64,000 bases of DNA from Porphyra umbilicalis (lineage: Eukaryota > Rhodophyta > Bangiophyceae > Bangiales > Bangiaceae): the NCBI GenBank assembly GCA_002049455.2, contig KV918792.1, positions 62,001-126,000 on the forward strand, written 5' to 3'. The number at the start of each line of letters is the position of its first letter. The first letter of the stretch is position 1. The notes beneath the pieces were generated by a model, which ran no database searches, was not told the origin of the DNA, and saw only the letters and a program-made list of their open reading frames with translations. Shown piece after piece: positions 9,593 to 50,234 of this stretch. Made by a program: the position numbers and the translations under genes.

Positions 9593-9600
9593 GAGCGTCG

Positions 9601-9676
9601 CGTGAAGGAAACGGACGCTGCAGCTTTCACATCATATTCGCGTGAACTTGCTGTGTGAAAGCAAACCGGCCAATCA
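9601..9676 (+). repeat. left terminal module of element A
   Basis: Terminus CGTGAAGGAA, then a hairpin with arms GCTTTCACA (9623-9631) and TGTGAAAGC (9654-9662), then a CCAATCA box at 9670-9676, 69 bp from the first base. The same parts at the same spacing occur in B, C and D. Confidence 0.85.
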
Positions 9677-10078
9677 GATCACTGCCTGCCGAGCTCGAGC
9701 GCTGAGCTGCCGACCTGACCGGCCCGCCTGCACGACCCTTGAGAGGGTGTACAGAACCGGATACGTGCCAGACATAAACTGGGCCGCCAGACATCAGCGA
9801 CGAGGAAAGGCCCGAGCGGGGCCACAGACACCAAAGCCTGTCCTGATCAGTCGTCGTGTCTGAGGCCGACGACACATGTCAGCGCCCTGGAGCACCCAAA
9901 AAAAGGGCTCCCAGATCGACAGCAAAATGATATACCGTTGTGTCTGCGGCCCTCAGCAGCCCTGTCTGGCGAGATACAGGCCTCCAGGACCCCTGGGCGC
10001 CCCCACCGTGGCGAGATAGTATCAGCACATGCGGTCAACAAAGCGAACGGGGAACCTCCTACGGACTGGCGCCTGTTT

Positions 10079-10410
10079 CATTGGCCAAGATGACACCTTC
10101 GTTTCCGCCACCTGGCCAATCAGCGGGCTGAAATGATTGTGCGCGCTTTGTGGCCCCTTTGGGGCACCCCCTGCACGGTACCTCTGGCGGGGGTGGGCGA
10201 TGGCGAATCTCGGGGGCCGTGCACGGGGGCGCTGGCAGCCCCTGGCGCGCCGGTAGAAATTTCATGCGGCCAGGATGCCGCCATCGTTTCCGCCATTTGG
10301 CCAATCAGCAGGCTGCAATGTTTGTGCGCGCTTTGTGGCCCCTTTGGGGCACCCCCTGCACGGTACCTCTGGCGGGGGTGGGCGCTGGCGAATCTCGGGG
10401 GCCGTGCACG
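10079..10410 (+). repeat. left subterminal minisatellite of A (185-bp unit)
   Basis: About 1.8 units of a 185-bp repeat containing GGCCAATCAGC and CCGTGCACG. The CCAAT word recurs at 10117 and 10302. The array is cut by the Mutator-like insertion at 10411 and resumes at 11722. Element C has four units at the same distance (478 bp) from its left end. Confidence 0.85.
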
Positions 10411-10732
10411 AGCGTGGAAAAACACTACCAGATCCCGCAGGTGCAAATCGGCTTCTGTACCTATCAAACTCATCCCGCATGTTGGACCGCACCGGCCCCT
10501 CTTGCCCCTCTGAGACGGTGTGTGAACACGAGATCTCTAACCTTTGCAGAGCCTTGCATCACGATTGCAGCGTTCGAACCCAGGGCACAGGCATCAGATC
10601 AGGTAAGTTTAGGCAACATCATATTTCTGAGCAGAAGTGGCTGTTTATTGTATTTCGAGGCCGAGGTGTCTGACGCCGTCTCATACCCCAATCTGACCGT
10701 GATCATGGCCTAGTACGACTACAGGACACGGC
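10411..10732 (+). repeat. left TIR of the MULE
   Basis: About 320 bp, matching the reverse complement of 11325-11721. Similarity is strongest over the outer 85 bp and again around the TGATCATGGCCT word near 10700. Confidence 0.7.
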
Positions 10733-11324
10733 GGAGGGGGGGGGCTGTTCTTCTACACCATACCGATGCAGAAAGGATAACAACGAAAGAGGGGGGGGGG
10801 GGGAGGGGGGGACACAGGCGAGAGAAAAAGAAGAATGCATCGGCGAAAGGAGGAGGACATCGGCCCACAAAGAGAGAGGAAAGAATCCCAACTGGACGCA
10901 AGCCGGCCGTCAGGGAAGGTGGGGAGGGGGGGGGTGGGGGGTGAAGCTGAGGGGGGAGCACAGCGGGGCAGGTGGGTGAAGGAGGCGGGGGGACCGCTGT
11001 GGGCAGCGAGAAACAGGTGGAGACAGCCCAGAAGACCAGCAGAAGGCAGGCCGGCAGGAGACGGGGGAGGGGAAGGTGGGGAGGGAGGGAAGGCGACGTG
11101 GAGGCGGCAGGACGGGGGGGGGGAGTGCACAGTACGAGGAAGGGGGTGGGGAGTGCACAGTACGAGGGGGGGGGGGGGGGTGCACAGTACGAGGGGGGGG
11201 GAGGGGAGTGCACCGTGCGGCAGGTCAGCGAAGGGGGCAGAGAGGGCCGTGTGGGAAACATGCTGGGTGTCGTTTCAAGTCAGGCCGTCACTCGCAGGGC
11301 GGGCAATCTTGAATCCCCCCCCCC

Positions 11325-11721
11325 CGCCGTGTCCCGCAGTCGTAGTGTACCAGGCCATGATCAGGGGCACTCGGGAACGAGGAGGAGGGAAGGCGCGTCG
11401 GACTCGAAGCATAGAATTTCGCTTCTCCAAACCCATAAATGAAGCCTGTCATTGTGAAACCTTTCAGATACGGGAGGAACGAATCCATAGCCTTGCATGA
11501 TGTCGGGGCTCTCACGTGTGGTCATGTGACGGGGCTCTCACGCGTGGTCACTGTGTTGGTCGCGCGATAGCTCCCCACGACTGTTCTGGCCCACAATCTC
11601 TAAGTTTTGCTGAAGGCTGCCACAGGGGCCTTCAGGGGTGGGCGCGTGCAACATGCGGGATGCGTTTGATTGGTGAAATGGCCGATTTGCACCCTAGAGA
11701 CGGCGAGTGTTTTACCATGTA
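11325..11721 (-). repeat. right TIR of the MULE
   Basis: About 400 bp, longer than the left arm partly because of a short internal duplication (two copies of GGGGCTCTCACG near 11504-11545). The outer tip GTGTTTTACCATGTA pairs imperfectly with the left tip. Confidence 0.7.
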
Positions 11722-12331
11722 CCGTGCACGGGGTTGCTGGGGCCCCCTGGCGCGCCGGAATTACAGTGCTGCCAAGCGTCATCCGCAACTGTAAGCAAAT
11801 CAACGGACAGATCCACCGACGAAACAGAAACACGTTCCGCTTGCTGTCGTAAAAATATTTTGATACATCAAATCGGTCTCGACTTTTTCTTCTCTCAGAG
11901 AATACTTTGAATCCGTCCACTTCCTTCCAAGATCAGGCGATTTCGAGGTTTCCAAGTGCCGACTGGGTCTGACACGGTGGACGACCTGCCCCGCGCGTCG
12001 CATCTGGCGGCAAGCACCGGAACGCCGCCCGTTTTAGCAACTTATCAAAAACCTGTTAGTTCACTCTCATGGCCTTGTTCGGCTGAAATTGCAGGACAAT
12101 CTAAAGTCTGTTCCATGGACGGGGCGCAGTGCCTACTGGTAGATATTTTAAGCCTCTGGAAGGGCCCTGGAGAGGCTCACTGATGTGTAATATGCTGGTG
12201 TGGATCGAAAATGATTGACAAGGGGTCCATTTTATTTTTTCGATCACCTGTGTCTGATCCAGATGGGTCAGGGTTGTGGGCCAGGGTTTTATCCCTGTGC
12301 GTAGGTCAATGCCGGCGATGCAGGCTCCTCA
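11722..12331 (+). other. interior of element A between its two insertions
   Basis: Matches 41697-42314 of element C closely. No coding region seen. It ends with TCA (12329-12331), the left target duplication of the Harbinger insertion. Confidence 0.7.
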
Positions 12332-12348
12332 GAGCACAGCCAACAATG
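12332..12348 (+). repeat. left TIR of the Harbinger element
   Basis: Pairs with 23605-23621 as an inverted repeat: 15 exact bases at the tip, 16 of 17 overall. Confidence 0.88.
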
Positions 12349-13263
12349 TCGCATTCCGCAAATATTGCATCCACGTGTCTAACGTGGCCCAACGTGGCAG
12401 CTCTATGCAGAAAACGGCACACGCAGCAATGTAGCTATGCGGAACCTCCACATAGAGTAGGTATTGACTTAAAGAAAGGTACTAATTCCAGTCCCATACC
12501 CATTTCTGGGGTTCGGAGACTGTCGGGAATCTGAGGCCCTGATCCGCATGGAGGCCCTCTATGCGGACGCAGAGCGTTGATTTCGAAGCGTCCCGAACCA
12601 ATTAACAGCGAATCGTAGCGCTGTCCGTGCATGCCTGTGGCCTCGGACGACCGCGACGGCCACCACGTGTGGTCCATCTGATCCCGATTGATCGCACAGC
12701 TGGATTTCAATCTGCACTCACCTGTGGACCCACTGCTGGCGGGACGCCGCAGGCGCTAGGATCGCCCAATACGTGACCACCGCAGACGAACAGGGCACCA
12801 GATTTTCGGGCCGTGCCGAGCATCTCAGGCGGCGAATGATACGTGCCTCGCGCGCCTTCTCACTCGGCTGTTGACACCGCCTCGCTTCAGCTCGCCAGAC
12901 GAAACGTGGAGGTCCTTCCGTCCAGGCGGATGAGCCGTGGACGGGACTGGATTTCTCCCCCAGTGCCGGCCCTGACGAGCCCTGATCCTGGCCCACCCCG
13001 GGCAGCGGGCCCGATTTGACAGTGTACACTGTCACACGGCCCCACGCGGGCATTTCAGGCCAGCCGAGGCCGCGGACAGCATGCTCCGCCGCCCCCCGGA
13101 AAGAGCCTGATTTTAGCGGGAGGAGGCACCTGCTGGCGCGGTGCCGTGATATTTTCGACGGCCCACACGACACCCGTGATTTCCCCGGCGTGGCACCCGC
13201 CGCCGCGCTGCCCACGCACATGCCCTGCCGTCGTCGTCACGGCGCCCACCACCACCCACCGGT
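12349..13263. other. 5' non-coding region of the Harbinger element
   Basis: Related short words containing CTATGCGGA recur at about 12435 and 12558. An open frame on - at 12718-13221 has no recognisable motif and is not called. Confidence 0.45.
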
Positions 13264-14808
13264 GTGCCCTCCGTCCTCGTCCCTCTTTTTTGCGGGTCTG
13301 CTGCCCGGCTCGACGCGGAAGGCAGCATGCTTCTTGACGGCCAGTTTGACGAGGACCTGGACCTGGCCGTCGTGCTCGGGGCCGCGGCTGGCCTTTCCTT
13401 GCGACGAGCGCTGCGCGTCGTGCGCGGGCGGGTGGACAAGCGGCCCATTGGTGGCTCCCGGCGCGGCCGGCGACCAAACCGCAACCGCGGTTTCGACGAG
13501 GGGGCGCACGCGATTTTGCGTGACTATTTTGGAGTTGGCGGGAAGCCGCCGGTCTGCAGTGAGCCCGATTTCGAGAAGAGCTTCCGCATGCCGCGCGCCG
13601 TCTTCCAGCGGCTCTACGTGGCCGTGTGTAACAAGCCTTGGTGGAAGCGTTCCGTCAACGCTACCGGGCGTTTGCAGTCGCACTCCATCCAGAAGCTGGT
13701 AGCGGCGTTGCGCGTCCTGGGCTATGGCGAGGCCTATGACCGTCCCGACGAGTACTGCCGCCTGTCACGCTCCACCATTTGCGAGGCTACCCGGCGCCTG
13801 ACCGACTTCATCGTCGAGAAGTGGGAGCCGACTTACCTACGCCGCCCTACCGAGGACGAGCTGAAGCACATCCTGGCCCGGAACGCGGCCCGTGGCATGC
13901 CGGGCTGCATTGGCGCCATCGACTGCACGCATTGGCAGTGGATCAAGTGCCCCAAGGCCCTTGCCGGGCAGTACCACGACCGCAAAGGTAAGCGCTCGGT
14001 GGTTATTGAGAGTGCGTGTGATGAGGACACGTACATTTGGCACTTTTTTATTGGGGCGCCAGGGAGCTACAACGACAAGAACGTGCTGGCGTCGTCCCCC
14101 CTCATGCTGGACGTGAACGCCGGTTTGTGGCCGCCGCGGAACCTGTCCTCCACACTAAACGGCCGGACCCGTCGCTCACTTTACTACACGGCCGATCAAG
14201 GATACCCCCGCTACCCGATTTTTGCCATGCCTCACCCCGCCCCCGACACCCGCAAGCTGCTCGTGTACAACCGACTACAAGAAGCCGTCCGCAAGGACGC
14301 CGAGCGTCTCTACGCGGTGATGCCGTCACGGTTCAACATTGTGCTGCGTCCGGCACGCTTTACGTCGGTGGAGCGCATGATCAACACCGGCAAGACAGTG
14401 GCCATTCTGCACAACATGGCCATAGAGTGCACACGCGCCGGCTTCTTGGCGCACCGAAGAATGCAAGCGGCGCCTGGGGGACCTACAGATGGGATGGGTC
14501 GACAAGCAGACGGCAATGCCTCTGGACGGGACGGCGCGCGCGACGAGGACGCAGGTGGCCACGGCTTCTTTGTCAATGACGGGCCGCGGGGCCCTGGCGT
14601 CTGGGGCCCCCCAGTGCCCGCTGATGATCAGGGCCGCGACCCCAGCGACCACGACGGGCCCGAGCTTATTGCTGGCTCTTTGCGGTACACCGATGGCGCC
14701 GAGTGTGAGGCCAAGGACAAGGACGCCCACTTTAACCTGATGCGCGACCTGTCTGAGCACGTGTGGAAGGACAGAGGCCGTTTTCTGTCGCCCTACGTCT
14801 GTGGGTAG
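13264..14808 (+). CDS. PIF/Harbinger DDE transposase (Plant_tran type)
   Basis: 514 aa from Met at 13264; the Met at 13327 (MLLDGQFDED) is an equally good start. The order of motifs follows the plant PIF/ALP1-like family: RNRGFDEGAHAILRDYFG, FRMPRAVFQRLYVAV, LSRSTICEATRR (helix-turn-helix-like), then the catalytic core GCIGAIDCTHWQWIKCP (Asp220, codon 13921-13923), SYNDKNVL, YYTADQGYP (Asp311, 14194-14196) and RKDAERLYAVMPSRF (Glu347, 14302-14304), closing with ILHNMAIE. All three DDE residues are present and no break is visible. A poorly conserved acidic tail of about 115 aa follows. It would cut and insert DNA at 3-bp targets, normally with the SANT-type partner encoded convergently at 15359-17278. 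It ends in TAG. Confidence 0.93.
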   Translation: MPSVLVPLFCGSAARLDAEGSMLLDGQFDEDLDLAVVLGAAAGLSLRRALRVVRGRVDKRPIGGSRRGRRPNRNRGFDEGAHAILRDYFGVGGKPPVCSEPDFEKSFRMPRAVFQRLYVAVCNKPWWKRSVNATGRLQSHSIQKLVAALRVLGYGEAYDRPDEYCRLSRSTICEATRRLTDFIVEKWEPTYLRRPTEDELKHILARNAARGMPGCIGAIDCTHWQWIKCPKALAGQYHDRKGKRSVVIESACDEDTYIWHFFIGAPGSYNDKNVLASSPLMLDVNAGLWPPRNLSSTLNGRTRRSLYYTADQGYPRYPIFAMPHPAPDTRKLLVYNRLQEAVRKDAERLYAVMPSRFNIVLRPARFTSVERMINTGKTVAILHNMAIECTRAGFLAHRRMQAAPGGPTDGMGRQADGNASGRDGARDEDAGGHGFFVNDGPRGPGVWGPPVPADDQGRDPSDHDGPELIAGSLRYTDGAECEAKDKDAHFNLMRDLSEHVWKDRGRFLSPYVCG

Positions 14809-15358
14809 TTTGCGTTCCGTCTCCTAGCCGGCTTGCGCGTGTCGTTCTCTTTTCCAAAAGGTTTTTTTTCCCCGCTCGGCAGGGTTTTTTTTTCCTCGAC
14901 AACTTCGCCACCGAAGCCCAAGCCCAAGTGAGCCGACCGACGCCGGTATGAGGTCGTGCGCGGTGTGGTGACAACAAAGGCGCTGAAAGACACTGATAAA
15001 GGCTGTCCGCTGCCCCTGCTCAGCGGCTGTGTTGGGACTACTGGGGCCGTCCATTAAAGGGGTGCATTAAAGGGCCTGCATTTTCTCGATTGAAGAGATT
15101 CGCCAAGGCATTTTTCCGGCCTTAGACGATTCTTCAAACCGTTGGGAGGACTCTATGCAGCGCGGCGTGACTCACAAGGCACAGGCTGATACACAGCGTT
15201 GTGGCAAAGGCTGATGGCAACCAGCATCACTTTGCAAGAAAAGGAATGCAAAAGAACATGTGCACACACACATACAGAAAAAAAGCAAAAAGCAGAGCAA
15301 CTGGCTACTCGGGCATGCTCATCGGTCGCGGCCGCGTAAAAGACGGCCGTCCGTACAT
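14809..15358. other. spacer between convergent Harbinger genes
   Basis: No gene. It contains two T-runs (near 14865 and 14886), expected in a shared 3' flank, and a small ATTAAAGGG repeat at about 15053-15074. Confidence 0.5.
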
Positions 15359-17278
15359 CTATCCCTCAGCGTCGGTGGCGTGTGCCTCAGGGGCGATGGT
15401 GCCGGCCGGGGTACGGCAGCGGCGAGTCGGCAAAGGTGGCCGTTTGCCACGCGCCGTGGCACGGCCGCGTCGCGAGCGGCCGTCCTGCTCCAAGTCATAG
15501 TCGTGGTCTGTGGCAGTGTTGTCGGCCATGAACTCCTCGCTGTCGGCACGATGCGCAGCTGCCGCCATCATCTCCGCGGCCTCCTCAGCGGCCGCCTCAA
15601 CAGGTGTGGACGGTGTCACCTGAGAAGCCATGGGCGTAGAGCGCCGCTCACGTGCTGCGCGTCCGTCGCTGCCTGTGGTGAGCCCCTGGTCCGAGTTCTT
15701 GTCTTCGTCAGTCGTCGATGACGCGTTAGTGGCGCCGCGTCGCGACCAGGTTGGCGGAGGAGGCGGCGTCGACGAGGATGAAGAGGATACAACAGCACAA
15801 GAAGTGCGCACACGCTCACAGCGGCCACCACGGCCGCGTCCACGACCACGGCCGTGTCCTCGGCCGCCTCGAGCGCCGCGGGCACCACCAAAGCCGCGGG
15901 CACCCGCTCTCGCGGCTGCTCGCTCAGCTTCCTCCTCAACCTCGTCCGTGTTGTAGTCGAGCTCGTCACGTGGCCGGCGGCGACGCCCGCGCGCTCCTTG
16001 GGCTTGGCCACGCGGCGCGCTCGGCAAGGCCACCAACAGGTCACCATCGTCCATCTCACGACCTTTCTGCGCGTCCTTATCCTTGTCCTCCGACTCCTGC
16101 AAGCGACGTCGCACCTCGTTGGCCCACCACTTGCGTCCTTCGCTTTAGTTGGATGCCTCAGGCGTTGACCAAAAGGCCAACGCCGTGCGTTGCGCAGCGG
16201 ACGCGGCCAGCGACTCAAGGGCGGCCGTGTTGGCGGCCGCCTCCCGATTAAGATGCGCTTCCGCCCGAGACGTGGCCTTAGCGGCCTTGTTGCCCATAGG
16301 CTGCTCTTGAAACAGGCGCTGACCGCGCGTGAACGTGGAGGACAGAGGGGCGTTGCCGTTGCCATCATCGTCGTCTGAGTCCCCCATAGCGCCAGTAGAA
16401 AGCGGGTCTTCGCTCCCAGTCGTGCGCCGCCCGCGGGGCGACGCCGCCGTCGAGGGTGCCGCGCTCGCCAAAGCCATTAGCGTGGCACCACCGCTAAACT
16501 TGTCGGTGTCCTTGAGGATTCGCCAGTTGCTGAGCGGAGGGCATTTGAGCTTGGCCGCGACCGCCGCGTTGAGGCCATCGTAGGGGTTCAGGCCGTTGTA
16601 CTTAGCCTTGGCCGCGTTGATGAGCTGCTCAGCTGTCGGGTTGCCCGTCATCTTGAGGTTGACCACCGCCAGATAGCATTCTTTAAAGCGATTAATAGCC
16701 GGGAACATGTTGTATCGGAGCTCCTTCATGATGGCCGCCGTCGAGCGGGCACGCCGCCGCTCCACTTGGTTCATGTCAGCGGGCAGGCGTCGGCGGAAGC
16801 GGTCGGCCACGTCCTCGTCAAAGCGCTCCAGGCTCTGGTCCACCCCCACCTCAGCGTTAAGCGTTGCTTCCTTGTAGATGGAGGCAAGCACGTTGCGCTC
16901 CGCTTCAACCCAGGACACGCCGCGCGTGCCGCGGCCGCCGGCAGTTGAAAAGATGCTGGCCCGTCGGCTGCGCTGCTCGATGAGGCCGCGCGACGCGGCG
17001 GCCTCGGCGCGGAGTTGTAGGACCTCCGCGCGCAACTGGTCCTCCTCCGTCTGCAGGGGCTGCTGCTCCAAGTGCCTGTCCAGTCCCCCGGAAAGCATGC
17101 TTTCGTCGGCCCCAACCGGCGCAGCACGTCGCCCAACTACTAGGGACTCGCCCTGCCCCGTCGGCGCGGTGAGCGCCGTGCCGGGGACGTCGTCGTGGTT
17201 GGCTGGTTCGGTGTTGACAGAGCCGTCTTTGGTAGCAAAAGTGGCCATGTCTTGGCCATCGGCGTTGAAGCTGGCCAT
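15359..17278 (-). pseudogene. SANT/NAM-like accessory protein of the Harbinger element
   Basis: From Met at 17278 (MASFNADGQD) one frame runs 377 aa to a TAA at 16145-16147, then continues in the same frame for about 260 aa to TAG at 15359. Residues 95-250 resemble the SANT/Myb-like plus NAM-associated domain of PIF second proteins: GVSWVEAERNVLASIYKEAT, RSTAAIMKELRYN, NRFKECYLAVVNL, AKAKYNG and NWRILKDTDKF. A coiled-coil-like Gln/Glu stretch precedes it. The part after the TAA begins SEGRKWWANEVRRRLQESED and is then low complexity, with an RG-rich block and an acidic tail. Such partners bind subterminal DNA and bring the transposase to the nucleus (known for rice Ping/mPing and fish Harbinger). 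Either the TAA is a nonsense mutation, or the 377-aa form is the product and the rest is a former tail. Confidence 0.7.
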
Positions 17279-17454
17279 GTCTTAGCCAAAAGGTCTTGGG
17301 CGCTTGTTGAGCACCGACACGGCCAAGGTAGCCACAATGCCGACGGCCTTGATGGGCCGGTGCTCCGGGGCGGCTAGAACCGTTTAGGCAACGGCAGTCG
17401 GCCCAACGCCTTGGGTGCCCACCAGACCGGCGCCGCGGGGAGGTTGGTGTTCAC

Positions 17455-18237
17455 TCAGTACTCCTCGCGCTTGCCCTCAGCGTCCGGCAAAGCTAGGCGG
17501 CGCTCCCACCGCGGAGGCCTTGTGAGCGCCTCCTCCCGCACGGCCTCGCGCCGCTGGGCCAGCACCCGCTGGTGTTCCTCCCACGTCACGGTGACCTCGA
17601 CACCGTGCTCGTCGGGGGGGAGCTTGATGAGACGCGGCGACGCCCACGGGCAGGGTTACCGCGGCGGGCACGTTGGGTGCTCGTCCCCGACAGTGACGGC
17701 GCACCTACACACGTAGCACATACGACGATGCGCCCGCCCCTCAGCAGTCCGACTCCAAAACGCGCAGTCACCTTGTGGGATCCACTCCCAGCCCCAGCCC
17801 GGCTGTGCGGGGGGCCGGACCGCCCAAGGGCACGGACAATCACGAGGGCACATAGCGATGTTACTGCTCACCTTCTGCGACCGCTTACACTGCGTGCAGA
17901 TGCTGAGACGGCCACGCTGCAACTCGGCCTTGGAGATAGTAGGGGCCCTCGGGCCATACCGCGGGCGAGGTGTGTACGCGGGAGCGTCGCCGCGAGCTCG
18001 AGTGCGCGACGTCCGCGACAGAGCCGCAGTGTCATCAGCTTCGGGCATGACCGCCGCCGAGACAGGTCCCGCACCACCTCCGGCAGGCCCTGAGTGGGCA
18101 GCGGTGTCCGCACGTCGTGGGCTGTTAGGCCTCTCAGCAGCAGCGCTCGACGGAATCGGCCGGGGCGGCGTCGCCACGCGCACGCATGGTGGCGTCGGAG
18201 GGGGCGTCGTACGGAACGGCGGGGCGCCGCTAGCCAT
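17455..18237 (-). pseudogene. Cys-rich (zinc-ribbon-like) protein in the Harbinger element
   Basis: Likely start is Met at 18237 (MASGAPPFRTT); the frame is open to 18813 with low-complexity sequence. A Pro/Ala/Ser-rich N-terminus is followed by two Cys clusters: SICTQCKRSQ...AMCPRDCPCPW and CAFW...HRRMCYVCRCAVTVGDEHPTC, plausible zinc ligands. A TAA at 17656-17658 interrupts the frame. The same frame then continues with coding-like sequence (LIKLPPDEHGVEVTVTWEEH, RWERRLALPDAEGKREEY) to TGA at 17455-17457. A similar motif, LCVRCHVLGEEPHTC, occurs in an open frame in element B (32435-33385). Family unrecognised. It could be a DNA-binding accessory protein or captured cargo. Confidence 0.5.
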
Positions 18238-20563
18238 GGCGCGCACCTCGGCTCGAGTTCGGAACGAGCCGGATGGTAGCGCTGGCTCTGCGGCTCCCCA
18301 AAACCACAGCCACACGCACAGCGCGCTGGCAGCCGGTCGCAGCGTAAAGGTTGCAGGCCGCGAGGGAGAGCGCAAGTCGTAGAAGTGGCCGCCGTCAAAG
18401 AAAAACGGCCGCTGCGCGCGCGCGGCCGTAGTAGAAATGCAGCCCCACGGCTGGGCCCAAGCGGCGGCACGGGAGCACGGTCGTGGGCGTGGTGGCGTCC
18501 GCGCAGCAGTGTGGCGGCCAAGCGGCGGCACGGGAGCAAGGTGGTGGGCGTGGTGGTGTCGGCGCCGCGCCGCAGTGTGGTAGCGGTGACGGTGTGCGGC
18601 GGCGTGACAGTGCGCGTAACGCAGGTTGACGAAGACGGCTTTAAACCGGTTAGTGCAGGGGGCCGTCCGAAAGGGGCCTCTAGAAGGCTTCTGCCTGCTT
18701 GCTGCTGAGGCTCCGAGATGCGGATGTGTCACACAGGGCAGAGGTGGCACGTTTCTCCAAAACGAGGCCGGGCACAGGGCCTGTGCCCCCACGCTCACAG
18801 GCCTTGTGTCCACAGGCCACAGTCAGGCAAGCAGTCAGGTCCACGCAGTGTCTGCTTGCATGAGCGAGCATAGAGACCAAATCGCGAGGCCCACACCAGC
18901 ACCCGTCGATCTTGGCGTGCCTGGCGAGGCGCCATCACTCGTGGCGAGGCCACAGCGCCTGATGTCCATCCGCCTGGGTTCTGAGCGGACGGTTGGGAGA
19001 CAGGGGACTGCCCCAATGTTGGTGAATCGGGCCCCATCAAGAGAAAATAGTGACGCGTCACGGGTATCGCTTGTCACTGGGCCCTGAGCGGAGCGATCAG
19101 TGGCAGTCAATAGCGCATATGTGTCGTGCCGGCCATGTCAGCTTGGCCACAACGCTCATTTTCCAGCCAAGGAGGGCCACACAATGTGATCGCACCACAT
19201 GACCAGTGACCAATAACGGTGAATCGTCTGACCCCTCGAGGGACACTGCGCGCTGGAGCCGGCTCGCAGGGCCACCCCACCGTAGTGTGGTCATCCATCG
19301 GACAGCATGCGAAGGCGTGTGGTGCGGAACGTCCCTACGCACAGGTTGTCCGTCGGCGGGCCACGGCGCAGGGGCCAGCACGTGGCGGTCATTCTAGACC
19401 GTCCAATCAAAATTGGGGCGGCCTTGATCCAACTCACTGGCCCTCCTCGTGTCACGCGGGACTCACTCACGGTGTTGCACCGCAATCTCATATCTCGGGC
19501 CTGATCGGACCGCCCGACGAGGCAAGCGGCCGGGCCCAGGCGTTTGTGAGTTGTGTTGACGGTTTCTACACACAGGGGCCAGAGCGTGGCGGCCATTCGC
19601 CAGAGCGTGGCGGCCAGTCTCTCTGGTCCAATCAAAAGCGGTTCGATCTTTTTTGATCCGCGCGGAACTGGCTCACGTGATCTCACCACGATCGCATCTT
19701 TCACATGTGGAACCTCATTTTCTGCGGCCGTGGAGGGCGGTGCTTGCACAGAACTGGGGGCTACTGGTTTACAGAGGCTTGGTTACAGTAAATAAGCTCA
19801 AATATTGACGATGCCTGTAGCCTGCATCGGATCAGTGTGAGAGGCGCCCTCTGTAATCGCACTCACTGCATGATGTGGAAACTGACAGAGTGCCGTGTGG
19901 ACTGCGTCTCCGTACGAAGGCGGTCAGCGCACAGCCATGGCACCGACCGACACGACCGCCACGCGGCCGTCACGCGTACGGGGGAGGCCAAACGCGTACG
20001 GGGGAGGAGGGGGGGGAGGGTGGGAGGGGGGGGAGGGTGGGAGGGGGGGGTGCGCCCGTAGCTTCCAGTCGTACGCTTCGACGCTTGGACGCGCTGAAAA
20101 GGCAATCTCCGTACAAAAAGGGAAGAACGCTCACGTCCTTTTCATATACTCTGCACAGGGACAGGCGCGCAGTGACAATGTCATGAAGATAGTCGCACCA
20201 AGCCCAACGCGCAGAGAACAGTAACACGAAGCGTGACGGAAAAGCAGCAAGAGGTTTATGGAGAGGCATCAAGACAGATGATGGTACAGAGGCCGCGCCC
20301 CATGTACGCAATCCAGTATGTATAGAGCACGAAACAGAAAATGCGGAAACCAAGCACGCCCGACGTACGCCCGACGTACGCAGTGCTAGAAAGAAAGTAT
20401 GGAAGTGCCAACGGCCCGGCCCGGCAAAGGCCGTCCAGTGAAGAGACAAAGCGAGAAAGACAGACGCCGCCCCAAAGAGCAGCCAGTGCTACCAGCACGT
20501 GCATGCCATGGTCGTACAGCCAAACACCTCGGGCACCTACCCGATACTGTGGGGCCCAGGGCG
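18238..20563. other. non-coding interior of the Harbinger element
   Basis: No gene recognised. Degenerate direct repeats lie at about 19375-19680 (CGTGGCGG...TCCAATCAAAA recurs near 19380 and 19598). A very G-rich tract at 19978-20052 could form G-quadruplexes on +. A short duplication containing CGCCCGACGTA lies near 20359-20383. This stretch may include an unrecognised nested insertion. Confidence 0.45.
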
Positions 20564-23604: not shown

Positions 23605-23621
23605 CGTTGTTGGCTGTGCTC
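23605..23621 (-). repeat. right TIR of the Harbinger element
   Basis: Ends TTGTTGGCTGTGCTC, the inverse of 12332-12346. The TCA duplication follows at 23622-23624. Confidence 0.88.
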
Positions 23622-23694
23622 TCAGCAGCCGATTCCAGGCCCTACGGAAGGGCATGCTCCTCATTCCTGTTTGCTTCCCACCTCTGACCGAGGT

Positions 23695-24960: not shown

Positions 24961-24967
24961 GCCAACC

Positions 24968-37031: not shown

Positions 37032-37328
37032 CAGGTAGGATAGGGAATACACGGGCTCTTTCCTTTCTCATCTTTGAACAATGTGTCAGACTGGATGCTC
37101 CTCCTTGATTTCCTGCTACGACCGTGGACAGCTTCTAGGAGGAGAGAAAAAGAGACAGAGCTCGATATTTATGGTGCTGCTAGATGGCCATGACATCTCG
37201 GTCACCCAACTCCGACACATCCCTATCTGACCCTGAACTGGACAGCAGAGAGCCTAGAGAGACAACCAAGTTTACGAGTAGTGGAGGTTGACCAAGTGCG
37301 GTCTGCAGTCGGCCGTGCTCAGTATGGC
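37032..37328. other. spacer between convergent genes of element B
   Basis: About 300 bp with no gene; the 3' ends of the helicase (+) and the third gene (-) face each other here. Confidence 0.5.
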
Positions 37329-40379: not shown

Positions 40380-40510
40380 GCGCATCCGGCCCCCCGCCCA
40401 GACGCGCGCGTGCGCAGCGCGCGCACCCCCCCCCCCCCCCCCCCCCTTTGGTTTCCCACTAGCTTTCCCGCGATATTCGTGGGATAGCTGTTTCGTACAA
40501 TTCCTATCTC
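40380..40510 (+). repeat. right terminal module of element B
   Basis: GCGCATCCGG (40380-40389), GC palindrome (40404-40424), run of 21 C (40426-40446), an imperfect hairpin, terminus TTCCTATCTC. The C run ends 64 bp from the terminus, as in A. Confidence 0.85.
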
Positions 40511-40524
40511 GGAGCTGTCCGGAC

Positions 40525-40600
40525 CGTGAAGGAAACGGACGCTGCAGCTTTCACATCATATTCGCGTGAACTTACTAAGTGAAAGCAAACCGGCCAATCA
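40525..40600 (+). repeat. left terminal module of element C
   Basis: Starts CGTGAAGGAAACGG, hairpin as in A, CCAATCA at 40594-40600 (69 bp from the end). Confidence 0.85.
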
Positions 40601-41002
40601 GATCACTGCCTGCCGAGCTTGAGCGCTGAGCTGCCGACATGATCGGCCCGCCTGCACGACCCTTGAGAGGTTGTACAGAACCGGATACGTGCCAGACATA
40701 AACAGGGCCGCCAGAAGTCAGCGATGAGGAAAGGCCCGAGCGGGGCCACAGACACCAATGCCTGTCCTGATCAGTCGTCGTGTCTGGGGCCGACGACACA
40801 TGTCAGCGCCCTGAAGCACCCAAAAAATGGGCTCCCAGACCGACAGGAAAATGAGATACCGATATGTCTGCGGCCCTCAGCAGCCCTGTCTGGCGAGATA
40901 CAGGCCTCCAGGACCCCTGGGCGCCCCCACAGTGGCGAGATAGTATCAGCACATGCGGTCAACAAAGCGACCAGGGAGCCACCTACGGACTGGCGCCTGT
41001 TT

Positions 41003-41736
41003 CATTGGCCAGGATGACACCTTCGTTTCCGCCACCTGGCCAATCCGCAGGCTGAAATGATTGTTCGCGCTTTGTGGCCCCTTTCGGGCACCCCCTGCAC
41101 GGTACCTGTGGCGGGGGTGGGCGCTGGCGAATCTCGAGGGCCGTGCACGGGGTCGCTGGGGGCCCCTGGCGCGCCGGTAGAAATTTCATGCAGCCAGGAT
41201 GCCGCCTTCGTTTTTCGCCACCTGGCCAATCAGCAGGCTGAAATGATTGTTCGCGCTTTGTGGCCCCTTTCGGGCACCCCCTGCACAGAACGTCTGGCGG
41301 GGGTGGGCGTTTGCGAATCTCGAGGGCCGTGCACGGGGTCGCTGGGGGCCCGTGACGCGCCGGAAGGAATTTCATGCAGCCAGGATGCGGCCTTCGTTTC
41401 CGTCACCTGGCCAATCAGCAGGCTGATATGATTGTTCGCGCTGTGTGGCCCCTTTGGTGCACCCCCTGGACGGTACCTCTGGCGGGGGTGGGCGCTGGCG
41501 AATCTCGGGGGCCGTGCACGGGGTCGCTGGGGGCCCGTGACGCGCAGGTAGGAATTTCATGCAGCCAGGATGCCGCCTTCGTTTCCGTCACCTGGCCAAT
41601 CAGCAGGCTGATATTATTGTTCGCGCTGTGTGGCCCCTTTGGGGCACCCCCTGGACGGTACCTCTGGCGGGGGTGGGCGCTGGCAAATCTCGGGGGCCGT
41701 GCACGGGGTCACTGGGGGCCCCTGGCGCGCCGAGAT
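41003..41736 (+). repeat. 185/186-bp minisatellite near the left end of C
   Basis: CAAT words at 41041, 41227, 41412 and 41597 mark units of 186, 185 and 185 bp. Each unit carries CCGTGCACGGGG. The block starts 478 bp from the left end, the same as in A. Confidence 0.92.
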
Positions 41737-43657
41737 TACGGTACTGCCAAGCGTCATCCTCAACTGTACGCAAGTCAACGGACCGATCCGCCGACGAAAC
41801 AGAAACAAGTTCCGCTTGCTGTCGTCAAAATGTTTTGATACATCAAATCGGGCTCGACTTTTTCTTCTCTAAAAGAATAGTTTGAATCCGTCCACTTCGT
41901 TCCAAGATCAGGCGATTCCGAGGTTTCCAAGTCCCTACTGTGTCTGACACGGTGGACGACCTGCCCCGCGCGTCGCATCAGGCGGCAGTCACCCGAACGC
42001 CGCCCGTTCTAGCAACTTATCAAAAACCTGTTAGTTCACTCTCATGGCCTTGTTCGGCTGAACTTTCAGGACAATCTGAAGTCTGTTCCATGGACGGGGC
42101 GCAGTGCCTACTGGTAGATATTTTAAGCCTCTGGAAGGGCCCTGGAGAGGCTCACTGATGTGTAATATGCTTGTGTGGATCGAAAATGATTGACAAGGGG
42201 TCCATTTTATTTTTGCGATCACCTGTGTCTGATCCAGATGGGTCACGGTTACGGGTTTGTGGGCCAGGGTTTTACCCCTGTGCGTAGGTCAACGCCAGCG
42301 ATGCAGGCTCCTCAGCAGCTGATTCCAGGCCCTACGGAAGGGCATGCTCCTCATTCCTGGTTTCTTCCCACCTCTGACCGCGGTGGCGTCCTGCTGGCGA
42401 CTGATCCTCTTGCTAGGAACTACAGTGGCTGGCAAGAGGACCAGTCACAAGTAGGACGCCATGGTGGAGCCAGCAGCTGCTGGCTCCACCAGCCGGCAAC
42501 AGCCCCGCAGCCGCACTGGTCTGTCACCAGTGGCCGCGTTCTTACCCACCCAGCCCCGCTGTCGGAGCTAACTCAGCAGCTGCCCGACTGACGCTGCATT
42601 CGTTTTGGCTGCTGCGCGCAGTCCCGTAGCCGGCCCCACCGACCGCTGCCCAGGCGGCACCCGCAGCCCCAAGCATACAGAATAATAGAAACAGTACCTT
42701 GGCTGTTTACGTAAGAGCGGACCTCCAGCAAACGGCAGCAGACACGCATGGTCAGAAAGACTGAAAGATATAGAAAGCGAAAGTAGGTTCTGGTTACACA
42801 GCGATGATGCCCACGAGCCGCACTCCAGTCACCCACGCCTTTTACCCATACCAGCTCATGTCTCCCCAGTACACAGTGGGGGCGTCGGTGGGCGATTATC
42901 GGGGAGCACGTCACTCGGCAATCCGCGAACATACTCACTGTCCCCCATCCGAGAGATAGACTGGTCAAGCAGCCAGCGTGGTGCTGGGCCGTGAGCGGTC
43001 ACAGGATTCTGGGAGACCCAGCCACGTCGGGATAGTCCCTCGTTGAGGAGCAGTCGGTCACCTGCGGAATGGTATCTGCTGATGGCTCCCAGTAGAACCC
43101 AAACGCCATCTGCCTGGTCACCTGTCGCCTCGGTTTCCAAAGTGGGGTCCCACGGTCGACCGCGATACGCGCATGGCCCCACCAGCAGCAGAGCTGGAAG
43201 AGATGGAAAGAGCGCCGCACGCTGAATTGGCCTGCCACCAGTGGCCGAGCTCCCACCCGTCCCGCCTCCCTGTCGGGGGTGACCCAGAAGCCGCCCGACT
43301 GTTGCTGTTTCGTTTATACTGTCTGCGCATAGAATCGGCGTGCGCCCCGGCGGTCGCTGTGCCGGCCTCACCCAGAGTGGCATGCAAGCTGTCCACCTGC
43401 CGCCTGAGCATTGGCGCCTGAAGGGGTACATGTAGCAGCACACTCGGTACACCAGCCCGCTGTACTGAAGTGTCTTCGTTGTTTGCGTACGAGCGGACCG
43501 CACTCATGCTTCAGTGGACAAGTGAGGTCAGACAGAATGGAGCTGAGAGAGAGCAAAAGAAGGTATTGACTACGATGTGATCGTGCACGCGCGCCACTCT
43601 CCAGTCACCCACAATGCAGCCACCCACGCCCGCTACCCGCGCTAGCTTGTGCCTACC
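41737..43657 (+). other. interior of element C
   Basis: No coding region believed. It holds the empty Harbinger target TCA (42312-42314), a degraded hairpin (42385-42460) and the perfect 30-bp palindrome at 42462-42491. Confidence 0.65.
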
Positions 43658-44150
43658 CTAGTCCTCTGCAGCTACATCGGCCAACGAAGAAGCAGCGAGG
43701 CGGGCGCAGGCGTCGGCCGCGGTCAATCTGTCCACATGAAGTGCAACACCAATACACTGCCGGAGGACTGGCATGTCAGGTTGGGCAAAGCATAGCGATG
43801 CTCCAAGCGAGAAGCAGTCCGCAGCGGCCATCTCAAACACACCACAGCTCCCGCCGTCACTTTGATGAGGCACGCCCACGTCCATAACACCCGCCCACTC
43901 TTAAATCTCCCAACCACGGACAGCGTCTTCCCCCTGCCGAGCAGCAACCTCGTCACGCAACCAGCGGCGCACAACTTGCAATACCGGAGCCGCCCCGCCA
44001 CCGCAAAGGAAGTCGTTGTACAGGAACTGGCGCGCCAAGATGTCAACAACCACGAGCACCCAGTGCAGATTGTCGACGTTGACGGGGATGAGGACACCGT
44101 CGCACGAGGCGGGCCTCGGACAATGCATGAGAGGAGGGTGTGGCAATCAA
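43658..44150 (-). pseudogene. Ulp1 remnant in element C
   Basis: Two pieces of the Ulp1 domain seen in B, in different frames. The upstream piece (about 43901-44146) has VLIPVNVDNLHWVLVVVD, keeping the catalytic His. The downstream piece has SDGGSCGVFEMAAADCF, keeping the catalytic Cys, and the tail to TAG at 43658-43660. A frameshift lies between them, and there is no KDZ part. The remnant runs opposite to the L-to-R direction in which B carries its KDZ-Ulp1 gene. Confidence 0.8.
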
Positions 44151-44560
44151 CATACCGGCAACAGCTGAAACACCGCTAGCGACCACTCAGCAGTCCCGGG
44201 TGCACGGGAACCGCGCGTACGGATGCCCGATGCCGGTCCGCCCGAAGGAGACGCACGCCTGGTAAAAGAGGCGCCATGGTGGCGGGTGCGACGACGATGG
44301 CGTCAACCGCGACGGCATCAGCGCCCACGCGCACATCGTGGCAGCGGATTCTGTACGGCGGCGGGGGGACCGATCCGTCGGGTCCTGTGTCGCCGTGCTG
44401 TCCTCGACGACAGTGGGGACCAATTCGCCACCCCGATCCGGAGATCATTGTGGTCGGGCCCCAGTTCTGGGTGGCCCCAATCGGTCCTGATTGCTGGCAC
44501 CGATGTCGAGGATGCGCCCGAAGTTGATGGAATCTCACTGTTGATTTCGTCAATCGACGA

Positions 44561-44692
44561 GCGCATCCGGCCCCCCCCCGAGGCGCGCGGAGCGCACGCA
44601 GAGCACGCGCGCCCCCCCCCCCCCCCCCGCGTGTTCACATCGCATATTCACGCGAATGTCATGTGAAAGCTGCACGGCGCATTTCCTAACTC
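44561..44692 (+). repeat. right terminal module of element C
   Basis: GCGCATCCGG (44561-44570), GC-rich partial palindrome, 16 C (44612-44627), hairpin TTCACAT...ATGTGAA, terminus TTTCCTAACTC. Confidence 0.85.
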
Positions 44693-44700
44693 GTGCGGAC

Positions 44701-45253: not shown

Positions 45254-45261
45254 GATCGAGT

Positions 45262-45394
45262 GAGGTAGGAGATGCTCGTTAACAGTTTCACGTGACATTG
45301 ATGGGAATATGCCGTGTGAAACCTCCGGGGAAGGGGGGGGGGCGGCGGCGCGCTGCGCGCGCTCGCGCCCGGCGGCCGGGCGGGCCGGATGCGC
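45262..45394 (-). repeat. right terminal module of element D
   Basis: Read on -: GCGCATCCGG (45385-45394), GC palindrome, run of 10 C (45333-45342 as G on +), hairpin around TTTCACACGG...CACGTGAAA, terminus TCCTACCTC at 45262. The C run ends 71 bp from the terminus. Confidence 0.8.
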
Positions 45395-46283
45395 CGGGCG
45401 ATTGTTAGAATTGTCCTGGTGATTGCACCGATTTCTGGTCCTTCAATAATTGCATATCTCGTAGCTGCGGGTCAGAAATATCCAGGGGCGTCGATCTGCG
45501 GATGATCACCCGCCATCCGGACCACTGTCTCGGTAAACAAAACCGTCATCCAGGTGGACCGCTCCGCCTCCCCTATCCGCCACCATGACGGACTGCCGCG
45601 AACCCGACCACCCCGCGCCCGACCCGCAGCGACCGTCGTCACCACCACCATGGCGCAATGTACCGTTCCTCGTGGAGCACGTCGGCTCGTAGCGCTTGTC
45701 GGGTTCCATGCGCGGATGTACCGATATGCAGGTAGCGCGGCCGGACGTGGCGACCCTAGGGGAGTGTGCGTAGCTTACGCGGGGCGTGTGGGCCCAGCAG
45801 CCGACGAGGGAGCGCGTGTGAGCCTGCCACCGACCGCGGGAGCGTGTGAGGAGGTGTCGCCGACCATAGTGCGCGCAGGGAGACGTCGTTGTCCGGGGAG
45901 GGCGTGTGGGCGTGCCGTTGACCGGGGACCGCGGTAGGGGGAGACGCTGTGCGTGTTACCCCGTTGTGTGCTGCCTGTGATGTTCTGCAGTGAGCTGCTG
46001 TGTGCCATTGTGAGCTGTACGTTGTCGACCTGCTCTCGAATCCACACTTGGTTTGGATGTGCGCGGCCGTGGGACTGGTGCCTTCTTCTGCACCTGGTTG
46101 CCGCCATTTGTCTTTCCATTTTGTGTCCTTGGGCAGGAGTGAGGCTCGTGCTCTGTTTTTGCCGGATGCTAACCGCCTTCCGTCCTGTCCTGCCCGTTTT
46201 CTTATTGCTGTCCTTGGGGAACAGATCATGCCAGAGATCACTGCCGCCGCCATGCCCGGCGATGCCAACGACGAGACGACGGT
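45395..46283. other. interior of element D, left part
   Basis: No convincing gene; several overlapping open frames up to 210 codons without motifs. It may contain eroded upstream parts of the WD40 fragment. Confidence 0.4.
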
Positions 46284-46504
46284 GGCGGTGGCGGCAGTGT
46301 GCAGCGGGTGGTGTATGGGTTGCAAGACCGGACGCTGCGCGCATGGGACGCGGGCCGGGGGAAGTGCGTTGGGGTGCTGAGCGGCCACTAAGTTTTTAGG
46401 CTGTGGTCAACTGCGTGTGTCTGGTGGAGGTGAGTGGGAGTGGTACACGAGGAGTCATTCCGGGCACCGGCACAGGTGCGAGCAGGCGAAGTGTGCGCGC
46501 TTGG
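46284..46504 (+). pseudogene. WD40-repeat fragment inside element D
   Basis: Reads RVVYGLQDRTLRAWDAGRGK then CVGVLSGH, the D-R-T-L-R-x-W-D ... L-x-G-H pattern of one WD40 blade. A TAA (46389-46391) and frame change follow, then the next blade: AVVNCVCLVEVSGSGTR ... RSVRAW. Two consecutive, decayed blades with no start. Likely a piece of a WD40 gene picked up by the element, or an older pseudogene it inserted around. Confidence 0.6.
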
Positions 46505-46632
46505 TAAAAGTGGGGGGGGCGATGACGTAGTCACGTTGTGTCCGGGTGCGCACTGCGCGCCTTTGCCCGAGACAGGCATTGAAGCGGCCAAAACCGTTCT
46601 GTGCGCCCACCGACTCGGATGGCCTGGCAGGA

Positions 46633-46764
46633 CAGTGCGTTCTCGTTAAAAGAGACAGCTGATTCAGCTTAATATGAATAAAAAAGTGGCCTACACGGAC
46701 TGGAATGGAAGACTCGCGACCCATATTCTCTTGTAAACCATTTTCTCGGAACGAGAACGCACTG
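46633..46764. mobile_element. Tc1/mariner-like MITE, copy 2
   Basis: 132 bp, same inverted ends as 45032-45162 and a clearly related interior. The right flank is TA (46765-46766); the left flank is GA, probably one mutation. Confidence 0.82.
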
Positions 46765-47152
46765 TAGTCGTCTGTCGTCTGAGGAGGCACTCTTTTGTCC
46801 ATATGTTATTCCACTTCAACGCTCACCTCTTTAGGTGGACGATTTCCCGTCCGTTTGTATTGTGCAGATCGCGTCTCTTGCTTGGGTGTCCGGCTTGTTT
46901 GATGGCCTGGGGGCTAATGTGTTGCTTGTCGCCGAACCTACGAAACATATGTATCGAAGAATTCTTCGAGATATGGCTCAGGGTAAAGTCCGACCCGACC
47001 ACGAGTGCCAGCTGGAATCATCGGTGGTTCATCGCGGGCTTGGCCATTCGGCCAACATGTTTAGGGGGATCGCCCCGATGGCCATGCCCGGTTGCATTGT
47101 CACTCCTGTCTCCAGCACTCCGGCGGGGTCGGGTTGCATTGCAGAACCACTG

Positions 47153-47400
47153 CTCTGGAGCCATCTGGGCAGGGGTGGGGTTGACCCCAGTTTCCCGCAC
47201 TGCTGCCTTCTTGGGGAGCGGGTGTCTGTGTCTCTGATCTGCCGCATTAGAGGCATGCGTGGGGGGATGATGGCGCCTCCACCCCACTGCCAAATCCCTA
47301 CTCTGGAGCCATCTGGGGAGGGGTGGGGCTGACCCCGGTTTCCCGCGCCGCCTTCTGGGGGGGGGGTCTTTGTCCCTGATCTGCCGCATCAGAGGCATAA
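47153..47400 (+). repeat. two direct repeats of about 148 bp
   Basis: CTCTGGAGCCATCTGGG occurs at 47153 and 47301, followed both times by GACCCC...TTTCCCGC and CTGATCTGCCGCAT. Confidence 0.75.
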
Positions 47401-48733
47401 GTACGGGGAAGGAGGCGCTTCTCATACCTCCGCTGTTGGAAGCTCCTCATTTCTGCCGGCACCCCACCTCAGTCGGCTCTGTGTATCCTGGCCAGCGGTC
47501 CAGTCACCGCATGGGGAGGAAGCTCAGTGCCTTTTGGAGCTGTGCGCTCTAAGCGGCAGGGGCAGCCATTCTGCAGTCAAGCAAGAGCGAGTCACAGAAC
47601 CAACTGACAGAGTGGAAGGGGCTGCTCGTTCACTACTACCCCACTGTATTTCTAATCTTGCTCTCTGTTCCACCCCTCATACCCAACCGTGTCCAGTCCT
47701 ACCAACAGCTGGGACATCACCGTATGCTCAGCCGCGCGCCTCGTGGCTTCTGCAGCACTGAGGTGAGGTCAGCCATCTTTCCAATGTCGATGATACCTGG
47801 CTAGACCAGCCATGATTGTCTGTCGGCAGTGTGTGGGCAGGAGTCGCCGGGGATGTGCCTTGTCACGTGCAGCTTTGTCGAGACGGACACCGTGAGGTCG
47901 CGACCGGCGCTCAGCCTCAATGAAAGCAAAACCACACCCTTGCCCTTGTACCTAATGGGGGCATCCCGCTTTGGGCTGGATGGGAGACCACCACTCGAAA
48001 CGTATACTCTGCGGAAACCATGACGGTCACAGCACAATTGCCTCGTTCAACTTAACCAGGCTATCCCACCTCAAGGATGTCCACCGACAACTCAAGGTCC
48101 AAAGCTTGAGTCCCGTCCACCCTCAGACGGGTTCGCGAACAGTCAAGCATCCGCAGCGTATCCCTGCCTCAACCACTTACCCGCCACCTGATGATGAAGT
48201 GATTGCCCGTGGCGCCGCCAACCATGGCATTCTTCGGTCGGTGTGTGTCTTGTGTCAGAGTATCGCGCTGCTCCCCTGTTCTGTCGATGAGCTGACCTGA
48301 CCCCGACCGGCACCTTCCCCCACTCCAGTGCCACTTCGCCCGCTCTGGCCACACCCAGTTGGTGGCAGCTGTTCGTGTTGTAGCTGTGAGGGAGCTTCGG
48401 TAGCCGCCACTTAGCAGCCTGGCCTGCACGCGCCATGGGGTACGGTTCGTACCGCGTGCTGGTAGAGGGTAGACTCATGCTTTGGGAGAAGCGACTCAGT
48501 GCCTGACGGAGGGGGATTAGCTCTCTAATTTCGGGGGTGTAGGCTTTGAGTGGCAGGGGCTGCGAAGGCCATCTAGCCGGGTTGGTATGACCATGTCGGT
48601 CCAGCCTTCCTCTTCCCTTTTAGTAGTCAAGTAGAATACACAGACAAAGATTCGATGGGTATGTAGAAAAAAAAATGTAATGGACAGCAGGCCTCAAGAC
48701 CGGGCGACTAAAACAATGCCGTGTCCCAAGTGC
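47401..48733. other. interior of element D, middle part
   Basis: No gene or repeat that I can support; only short motif-free open frames. Confidence 0.45.
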
Positions 48734-48860
48734 CTACTCTTCAACGGCGTCGTCGCCGTCGCGCACGTCAGGAAGAAACGCGCAGCCGTCTACAGCGGTC
48801 AAACTACCAACAAACAGCGCAACACCCATGCGCCAGGGGAAAAGCAGGGAGCACAACGAG
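48734..48860 (-). pseudogene. Ulp1 C-terminal remnant in element D
   Basis: WRMGVALFVGSLTAVDG followed by a short acidic tail and stop matches the last 30 residues of the B protein (RMGLALFVDSLTVAD...). No catalytic residue remains. It reads in the L-to-R direction of D, as in B and opposite to A and C. Confidence 0.65.
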
Positions 48861-48999
48861 AGCAGCAACCACACTGGGCGCTGATGCCGGCGTCGCAGGA
48901 AGCACCGGGAAAAGCAGCGAGGACCACGACGAACGGCACAACGGAGGGATGGCACCCTGCTCTGCTGACTTGCCCAGATCGGGGGGCCGCCCACAGGGT

Positions 49000-49800
49000 G
49001 CGTGCACGCAGGTGCCGCAGCGTCCACAGGGATCGAGTGCTGCCGCCAAATGGCGATGTGTGGCCCACAGATGCCCCCACTGGAAATACGGGCCAGACAT
49101 TATTGGCCCGAACACTTTGGGCTCGCGATTCTAAACGGAGCGCCCACAGGGTGCGTGCACGCAGATGCGAGGGCTGAATGGGGGAATGTGGCCCACAGTG
49201 GCCCCCGTGGCAAATGCGGACCAACAATTATCGGCGGGCCGACTTTGGGCCCCCATTTTTGGCTGGTGCGCGCGCAATCCGGGCGCGAGCAGGGCGCCCA
49301 GAGGGTGCAAGCACGCAGGTGCGGGGGCTGAATAGGGGGGTGTGGCCCATAGTGGCCCCCGTGGCGAATGCGGACAAGCAATCATCGGCGGGCCGATTTC
49401 GGGCCCCCATTTTTGGCCGGTGCGCGCGCAATCCGGGCACGAGCAGGGCGCCCAGAGTGTGCGTGCACGCAGGTGCGGGGGCTGAATAGGGGGGTGTGGC
49501 CCACAGTGGCCCCCGTGGCAAATTCGGACCAGCAATTATCGGCGGGCCGATTTTGGGCCCCCATTTTTGGCCGGTGCGCGCAAAAACCGGGCGCGAACAG
49601 GGCGCCCATAGGGTGCGTGCACGCAGGTGCGGGGGCTGAATAGGGGGGTGTGGCCCACAGTGGCCCTCGTGGCAAATGCGGACCAGCGATCATCAGCGGG
49701 CCAATTTCGGGCCCCCATTTTTGGCCGGTGCGCGCGCAAACCGGGCGCGAGCAGGGCGCCCAGAGGGTGCGTGCTCGCAGGTGCTCCGAATTGTCCTGTT
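49000..49800 (-). repeat. 154-bp minisatellite near the left end of D
   Basis: GGGCTGAAT words at 49171, 49325, 49479 and 49633 give an exact 154-bp period. A degenerate first unit starts near 49000, and the last is cut at about 49790. The block begins about 430 bp from the left end of D. Confidence 0.93.
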
Positions 49801-50150
49801 CTACGTGATATCGGCATGCTCGCTGGGGCCACTTGATAGGTCCGATATTTTTGACTACCGGATCTGTGGCTGAGAGCTGTGGTCTAACATGCGTTTTTAT
49901 CAGCTTCCGAGGATCGGGTTTCCGTTGGATATGCCATCTGGACCGTATCTCGCTCGTCATATGCCCCTTGATACGGGCCCCGCCCCCTCGACATGCCGCT
50001 TCTTGGGGGGCTGCTTTGTGTCAGGGCTGGGTCGGTCGGCGTGTCTGGGGGCTGGTGTCTGTGTCTGGCACGTATCAGGCTGCCCCATGGGCGTCTCAGG
50101 GTGGTCTGTTCTGCTGTGACCACAGCGCTCGCTGGCGGATCGTCGTCATT

Positions 50151-50226
50151 TGATTGGCTGAGTTGGTTATACATGACAAGTTCCCACCAATGTCATGTGA
50201 AACTGCGCACGGCCGATTCCTTCACG
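50151..50226 (-). repeat. left terminal module of element D
   Basis: Read on -: CGTGAAGGAATCGG, hairpin with arms CATGACA and TGTCATG, then CCAATCA (TGATTGG at 50151-50157 on +), 69 bp from the end. Confidence 0.83.
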
Positions 50227-50234
50227 GATCGAGT

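Follow-up and report, generated by a model that had tools for sequence, protein, structure and literature searches.

In the parts of the published accounts available to us, the closest described systems are transposons of the KDZ group. There, 8-bp target duplications are reported for Zisupton and for the rust Dileera Zisupton-1_PGr, while fungal Kyakuja elements have 7-bp duplications and no terminal inverted repeats (TIRs) (PMC12730594), and Kyakuja-3_cRei of Chlamydomonas reinhardtii, which was assigned to KDZ, shows an 8-bp duplication and imperfect inverted repeats (PMC10828217). For the giant transposon families of Ectocarpus, the transposase genes are described as pseudogenes in frequent predictions, with movement in trans being inferred (PMC12477816). 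Here we analyse a 64,000-nucleotide stretch of Porphyra umbilicalis (assembly GCA_002049455.2, contig KV918792.1, positions 62,001 to 126,000; 'the window'), in which four elements, A to D, stand one after another (Table 1). Their TIRs, the fixed 8-bp duplications, the members that keep only relics and a shared gene together make it almost certain that A to D belong to one cut-and-paste transposon family, which is probably of KDZ type.

Each element was flanked by an octamer pair of its own, as a preliminary description of this DNA had claimed together with the positions of the elements and their shared ends. The two octamers matched at 8, 8, 7 and 8 of 8 positions for A, B, C and D, whereas the 12 cross pairings of ends gave 0 to 4 of 8. 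The length was specific, with no element matching at more than half of the positions at 4–7 or 9–12 bp, and octamer pairs drawn from the window matched at 8/8 with a frequency of 3e-5 and at 7/8 or better with 5.7e-4 (200,000 random pairs). Read in the orientation of the element, the octamers of D are ACTCGATC and ACTCGATC; the left octamer of C is a perfect palindrome from which the right copy departs at a single base. The right duplication of B and the left duplication of C share 2 bp, so that either insertion may be the earlier. Alignment of A with C set the left boundary independently of the duplications, since it begins exactly at 9601/40525, and reached its right limit at 25608/44697, five bases beyond the ends and inside the duplications. 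Inverted terminal repeats and a target duplication of fixed length, which mark a TIR DNA transposon, were both present.

Once the elements are removed, all four insertions fall within 622 bases of ancestral sequence. The probability of such clustering is about 7e-5 for four insertions scattered randomly over the window's other DNA (roughly 24 kb), a figure that is post hoc because the finding was picked for these very elements. Local hopping or a permissive target is a possible cause. The joined flanks carry eight frames of 121–346 residues near the site.

The ten-base left end CGTGAAGGAA occurs four times on the two strands of the window and the nine-base right end, GAG[AGT]TAGGA read inward, also four times; these occurrences are exactly the outer ends of A to D. 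Left and right ends proved to be imperfect TIRs of about 60 bp rather than the 'only weakly inverted' sequences first described, with identities over 62 nucleotides (ungapped, read inward) of 73% for A, 56% for B, 69% for C and 68% for D, whereas random pairs (n = 2,000) reached 45% at most. The left ends of A, B and D had their best match in the right end of the same element (for B, 0.56 versus 0.55 for that of A). A model built from the left ends recovered all four right ends, with expectation values (E) of 9.9e-8 for C, 1.2e-7 for A, 5.5e-5 for D and 1.1e-3 for B, its top match outside the elements having E = 7.1. Among the left ends, the converse model recovered A (3.1e-9), C (1.3e-7), D (5e-6) and, weakly, B (0.051), with a top outside match at 0.85. 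That ordinary TIR searches would miss such ends, as had been proposed, seems doubtful because they are imperfect TIRs of this length.

The ends had also been thought strongly structured. Folding the eight 70-nucleotide ends as single-stranded DNA led us to reject hairpins beyond chance: compared with shuffles, z was 0 to −0.6 for four ends, −1.1 to −1.4 for three and −2.94 for the right end of B, so that most ends were no more structured than shuffled sequence. The right subterminal stretches gave z-scores of −1.17, −4.40 (B), −0.13 and +1.33.

The outermost three bases are consistently asymmetric: left ends have CGT, right ends GAG. Further in lies a trio of short motifs at about positions 26, 41 and 54, of which one is forward and the other two are reversed. 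The trio reads TTCACA/CGTGAA/TGTGAA in A and mostly also in C, and TCCCAC/(T or C)GGGAA/TGGGAA in B; D has a mixture, and the third motif found no match in the left ends of C and D. Within an element the motifs tend to covary, as they should if both ends are bound by one protein. In every one of the four elements CCAAT begins at offset 69, counted from the left terminus, in agreement with the spacing first noted.

The two sides also differ in layout. The right side has a G tract, next a GC-rich stretch and then GGCCGGATGCGC, with uninterrupted G runs of 16, 21, 17 and 10 bases in A, B, C and D. GGCCGGATGCGC is present in all four right ends and absent from the rest of the window; its distance to the right terminus is, in the same order, 109, 119, 120 and 121 bases. 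On the left, all four elements have tandem arrays about 270–480 bp from the end, with units of 154–186 bp; the array of A is interrupted by an insertion and was visible only in a blastn self-comparison. We detected no homology between the arrays of the different lineages, as the first units of A/C, B and D matched at 34–38% when set without gaps in their best circular register, and no match had an E below 0.03 when gaps were allowed.

The ends can be tied to a gene. Frame P0001 of B contains an Ulp1/C48 peptidase domain at residues 866–1023 (Pfam, E = 3.6e-25), a part whose closest solved chain is SENP1 (E = 8e-18). His, Asp, Gln and Cys, which we take to be the Ulp1 catalytic set, are found there in NTHW, YDS and RQHDSGSC. 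The tie, claimed before and upheld here for the Ulp1-bearing gene, is stronger than first put, because relics of the 3′ end of this gene are clear in A and C and present, though weak, in D. The D relic gains support from 54 bases that match A (76%; E = 3.8e-5, or 1e-8 in a small comparison). Pfam scans covered 47 translated stretches, some overlapping, in a window with 665 stop-to-stop segments of at least 60 residues; the segment matches considered are the 120 listed of 157.

B had been described as encoding a KDZ transposase with Ulp1, of which the Ulp1 part stood and the KDZ part found no match in Pfam. KDZ transposases carry the hallmark motifs YDxxC ... FHxxxHxxxC ... E. The left flank has a frame of its own, P0002, which reads IYDFAC and FHWRKNHTLC (one residue off this spacing). 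Over 148 residues it is 30% identical to P0001 (pairwise E = 6e-11), and these KDZ-like motifs lie within the matching region. At the motif places of P0002, B reads FYYVAC (residues 550–555) and PHSITHTC, and the E is present in TQVAEV. Target duplications of the 7–8 bp expected of KDZ were found in four of four elements, each of 8 bp and one with a mismatch. This length is not diagnostic: it had been taken as a sign of the Zisupton branch, and a rust Dileera and a Chlamydomonas Kyakuja insertion show 8 bp too.

Several observations weigh against reading A to D as one KDZ-like family. The Pfam KDZ model PF18758 (217 positions) gave no match to P0001, P0002 or trimmed pieces of them at E up to 10; since the filters of HMMER remove most matches weaker than about 0.1, a divergent KDZ member could escape such searches. 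The model itself matched in none of 14 control genomes and not in the one record searched. The YYVAC of B lacks the Asp of YDxxC, a putatively catalytic residue. No relative turned up in the viral or prokaryote contigs searched, which are poor places for such an element, phage DNA was likewise fruitless, and a single-sequence structure model of P0001 (mean predicted local distance difference test score 35) was uninformative. Among the ends, the left end of C is slightly closer to the right end of A (0.71) than to its own (0.69), and the left tip of B has CGTGAA, as in A, C and D, in place of the B-type motif. Finally, the direction of the Ulp1 gene relative to the left end is forward in B and D but reversed in A and C.

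With these points weighed, we consider it likely that a single family of cut-and-paste DNA transposons, KDZ-like or from a sister lineage, inserted separately four times to give A to D. Its transposase would recognise the imperfect inverted repeat of about 60 bp at each end, excise the element and insert it at a target whose strands are cut 8 bases apart, and gap filling at the staggered target would yield the 8-bp duplication. The ends, the duplications, the shared gene relics and the nesting are observed, whereas the chemistry of transposition, the identity of the acting protein and the kinship with KDZ are inferred. B is a large coding member, its gene joining a transposase-like region to a C-terminal protease of the Ulp1 (small ubiquitin-like modifier, SUMO) type. 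A, C and D are apparently internally deleted members, presumably mobile only in trans, as B perhaps is too, and the Harbinger element now within A entered it later. B may be unable to make an active transposase: if the Asp is catalytic, B could not cut DNA despite its open frame, and intact relatives elsewhere would have to supply the enzyme.

The 8-bp duplication does not single out KDZ, and with the Pfam KDZ model unmatched the family could belong to another 8-bp superfamily (hAT, P and Merlin have targets of this length) or to an unnamed one, the Ulp1 gene being part of its transposase. We think this unlikely, as the scanned stretches of B, which represent some of its frames, yielded no transposase domain of hAT, P or Merlin, and the motif layout fits KDZ. 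We give about the same small weight to the view, compatible with other readings, that the Ulp1 gene of B is a captured passenger and the true transposase is encoded elsewhere. The missing Asp of B and the opposite orientation of the A and C relics relative to the ends speak for a passenger; but besides the ends, the 3′ end of this gene is the only part of B that matched the other members in our comparison of the elements, and it did so, at protein or nucleotide level, in all three (weakly in D), as would be expected of the family's own gene.

Somewhat less probable again is a reading in which the lineage would lie outside the described KDZ clades, with a transposase fused to an active SUMO protease, and would be marked by the asymmetric tips (CGT/GAG) and the one-sided right-end module with GGCCGGATGCGC; B would be catalytically dead but translated, moved in trans or regulatory, and the substrate of the protease would be host SUMO at the insertion complex. 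In one literature collection we found no publication joining the words Ulp1, transposase and KDZ, or Ulp1, transposon and 8-bp duplication. That recombination or tandem duplication of one insertion produced the repeated ends is very improbable, since, for all that A and C are 92.6–97.7% identical across aligned blocks and stand 15 kb apart, each element has a distinct octamer on both its sides and the cross pairings match at no more than 4 of 8 positions.

Table 1 Positions of the elements, their duplications, ends, repeats and genes in the window
Feature	Position	Strand	Remarks
Element A	9601..25603	+	16,003 bp; about 4.7 kb once nested Harbinger is subtracted
Element B	25667..40510	+	14,844 bp; sole member found to have a long transposase-candidate frame
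Element C	40525..44692	+	4,168 bp; without long transposase frame
Element D	45262..50226	-	4,965 bp; left end at 50226; without long transposase frame
Target duplication of A	9593..9600 and 25604..25611		GAGCGTCG on both sides
Target duplication of B	25659..25666 and 40511..40518		GGAGCTGT on both sides
Target duplication of C	40517..40524 and 44693..44700		GTCCGGAC left, GTGCGGAC right; one mismatch
Target duplication of D	45254..45261 and 50227..50234		GATCGAGT on both sides
Left TIR of A	9601..9662	+	From end comparison and end models
Right TIR of A	25542..25603	-	Inward reading GAGGTAGGAA
Right-end motif GGCCGGATGCGC of A, B and C	25483-25494 (A), 40380-40391 (B), 44561-44572 (C)	-	
Right-end motif GGCCGGATGCGC of D	45383..45394	+	
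Subterminal tandem array of B	25934..26923	+	186-bp unit, 5.4 copies
Subterminal tandem array of C	41008..41732	+	185-bp unit, 3.9 copies
Subterminal tandem array of D	49140..49784	-	154-bp unit, 4.2 copies
Frame P0001 of B	28847..31999	+	1,051 residues between stops; candidate transposase, Ulp1/C48 domain at C terminus
PIF1-like helicase frame of B	35124..36806	+	E 7e-13
Relic of Ulp1 gene 3′ end in A	25022..25126	-	35 residues, E 1.7e-7
Ulp1 domain relic in C	43721..44101	-	127 residues, 57% identity to B, E 4e-36; in-frame stop
Relic of Ulp1 gene 3′ end in D	48788..48832	-	15 residues; weak, E 0.49 alone
Nested PIF/Harbinger-type element in A	12332..23621		11,290 bp; 15-bp TIR GAGCACAGCCAACAA; 3-bp duplication TCA
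Plant_tran gene of nested Harbinger	13264-14808	+	Plant_tran E 2e-47, DDE_Tnp_4 E 7e-11
NAM-associated frame of nested Harbinger	16145-17278	-	Weak: E 0.003, 18.9 bits against a cut-off of 27.7

The 16-kb size of A is mainly that of a nested 11.3-kb Harbinger absent from C, in which the uninterrupted site is preserved with a single TCA. We therefore rejected A as a single 16-kb element with Harbinger-type genes of its own, C lacking precisely this stretch. The nested element combines a Plant_tran/DDE_Tnp_4 transposase, TIRs and a 3-bp duplication, as PIF/Harbinger elements do; a 5-bp reading of the duplication, CTCAG, fits as well. For the second, Myb/NAM-like gene of such elements, the frame with the weak NAM-associated match is a candidate. 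This frame and the Plant_tran gene stand tail to tail, and Ectocarpus Harbingers are described, in the passages available to us, as having two tail-to-tail genes and TNA targets (PMC12477816). Two further frames of the nested element, 17659-18813 and 20567-21880 (minus strand), had no Pfam match. A second insertion in A, of about 1.3 kb near 10410-11715, breaks the tandem array and has short inverted repeats and an apparent 8–9-bp duplication, CCGTGCACG. From the duplication length we presume it to be hAT- or MULE-like (Mutator-like).

In B, within 35124-36900 (+), helicase-like sequence with what appear to be the last motifs resumes in frame right after the stop codon of the PIF1-like frame; because these motifs directly follow an in-frame stop, the helicase gene, as read from its sequence, is probably broken or spliced. 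The left flank, at 1-1974 (+) and 5221-9051 (-), holds a frame related to the transposase-like region of B and another long Ulp1/C48 frame, whose domain match is barely above the curated cut-off. A 135-bp repeat resembling a miniature inverted-repeat transposable element is present in two copies, 87% identical, at 45030-45164 (between C and D) and 46632-46766 (inside D), with inverted ends near TACAGTGCGTTCTCGTT. In the right flank, 53762-55849 (+) contains coding sequence like that of a long terminal repeat retrotransposon, with reverse transcriptase, RNase H and an aspartic protease just below the cut-off; the reverse transcriptase and protease matches, like the transposon types, fit a eukaryotic host.

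Precise ends, target duplications and a linked gene are thus in hand for a large transposon family that escaped the curated transposase models applied to it, and the defined ends make the family searchable genome-wide. Element A illustrates that a 16-kb 'giant' can be a 4.7-kb element swollen by a nested transposon, and a transposase fused to a SUMO protease is worth testing.

Compared with Zisupton, Dileera and Kyakuja of fungi and fish, the family of A to D differs in having no match to PF18758 and no TET/JBP match in the 47 stretches scanned. With Zisupton and the Dileera element Zisupton-1_PGr it shares the reported 8-bp duplications, while fungal Kyakuja, with 7 bp and no TIRs, contrasts with the 8 bp and TIRs found here; the main text of that account, in the form available to us, does not contain the word Ulp1, in contrast to the Ulp1 domain of B (PMC12730594). 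The passages at hand on the giant KDZ elements of Ectocarpus likewise make no mention of Ulp1, yet in general build, termini and domains left aside, those elements resemble ours in their large size, nested unrelated insertions, transposase genes often predicted to be pseudogenes and inferred movement in trans (PMC12477816). By description rather than by sequence, and as far as the consulted part of its account goes, Kyakuja-3_cRei is like A to D in both its 8-bp duplication and its imperfect TIRs (PMC10828217).

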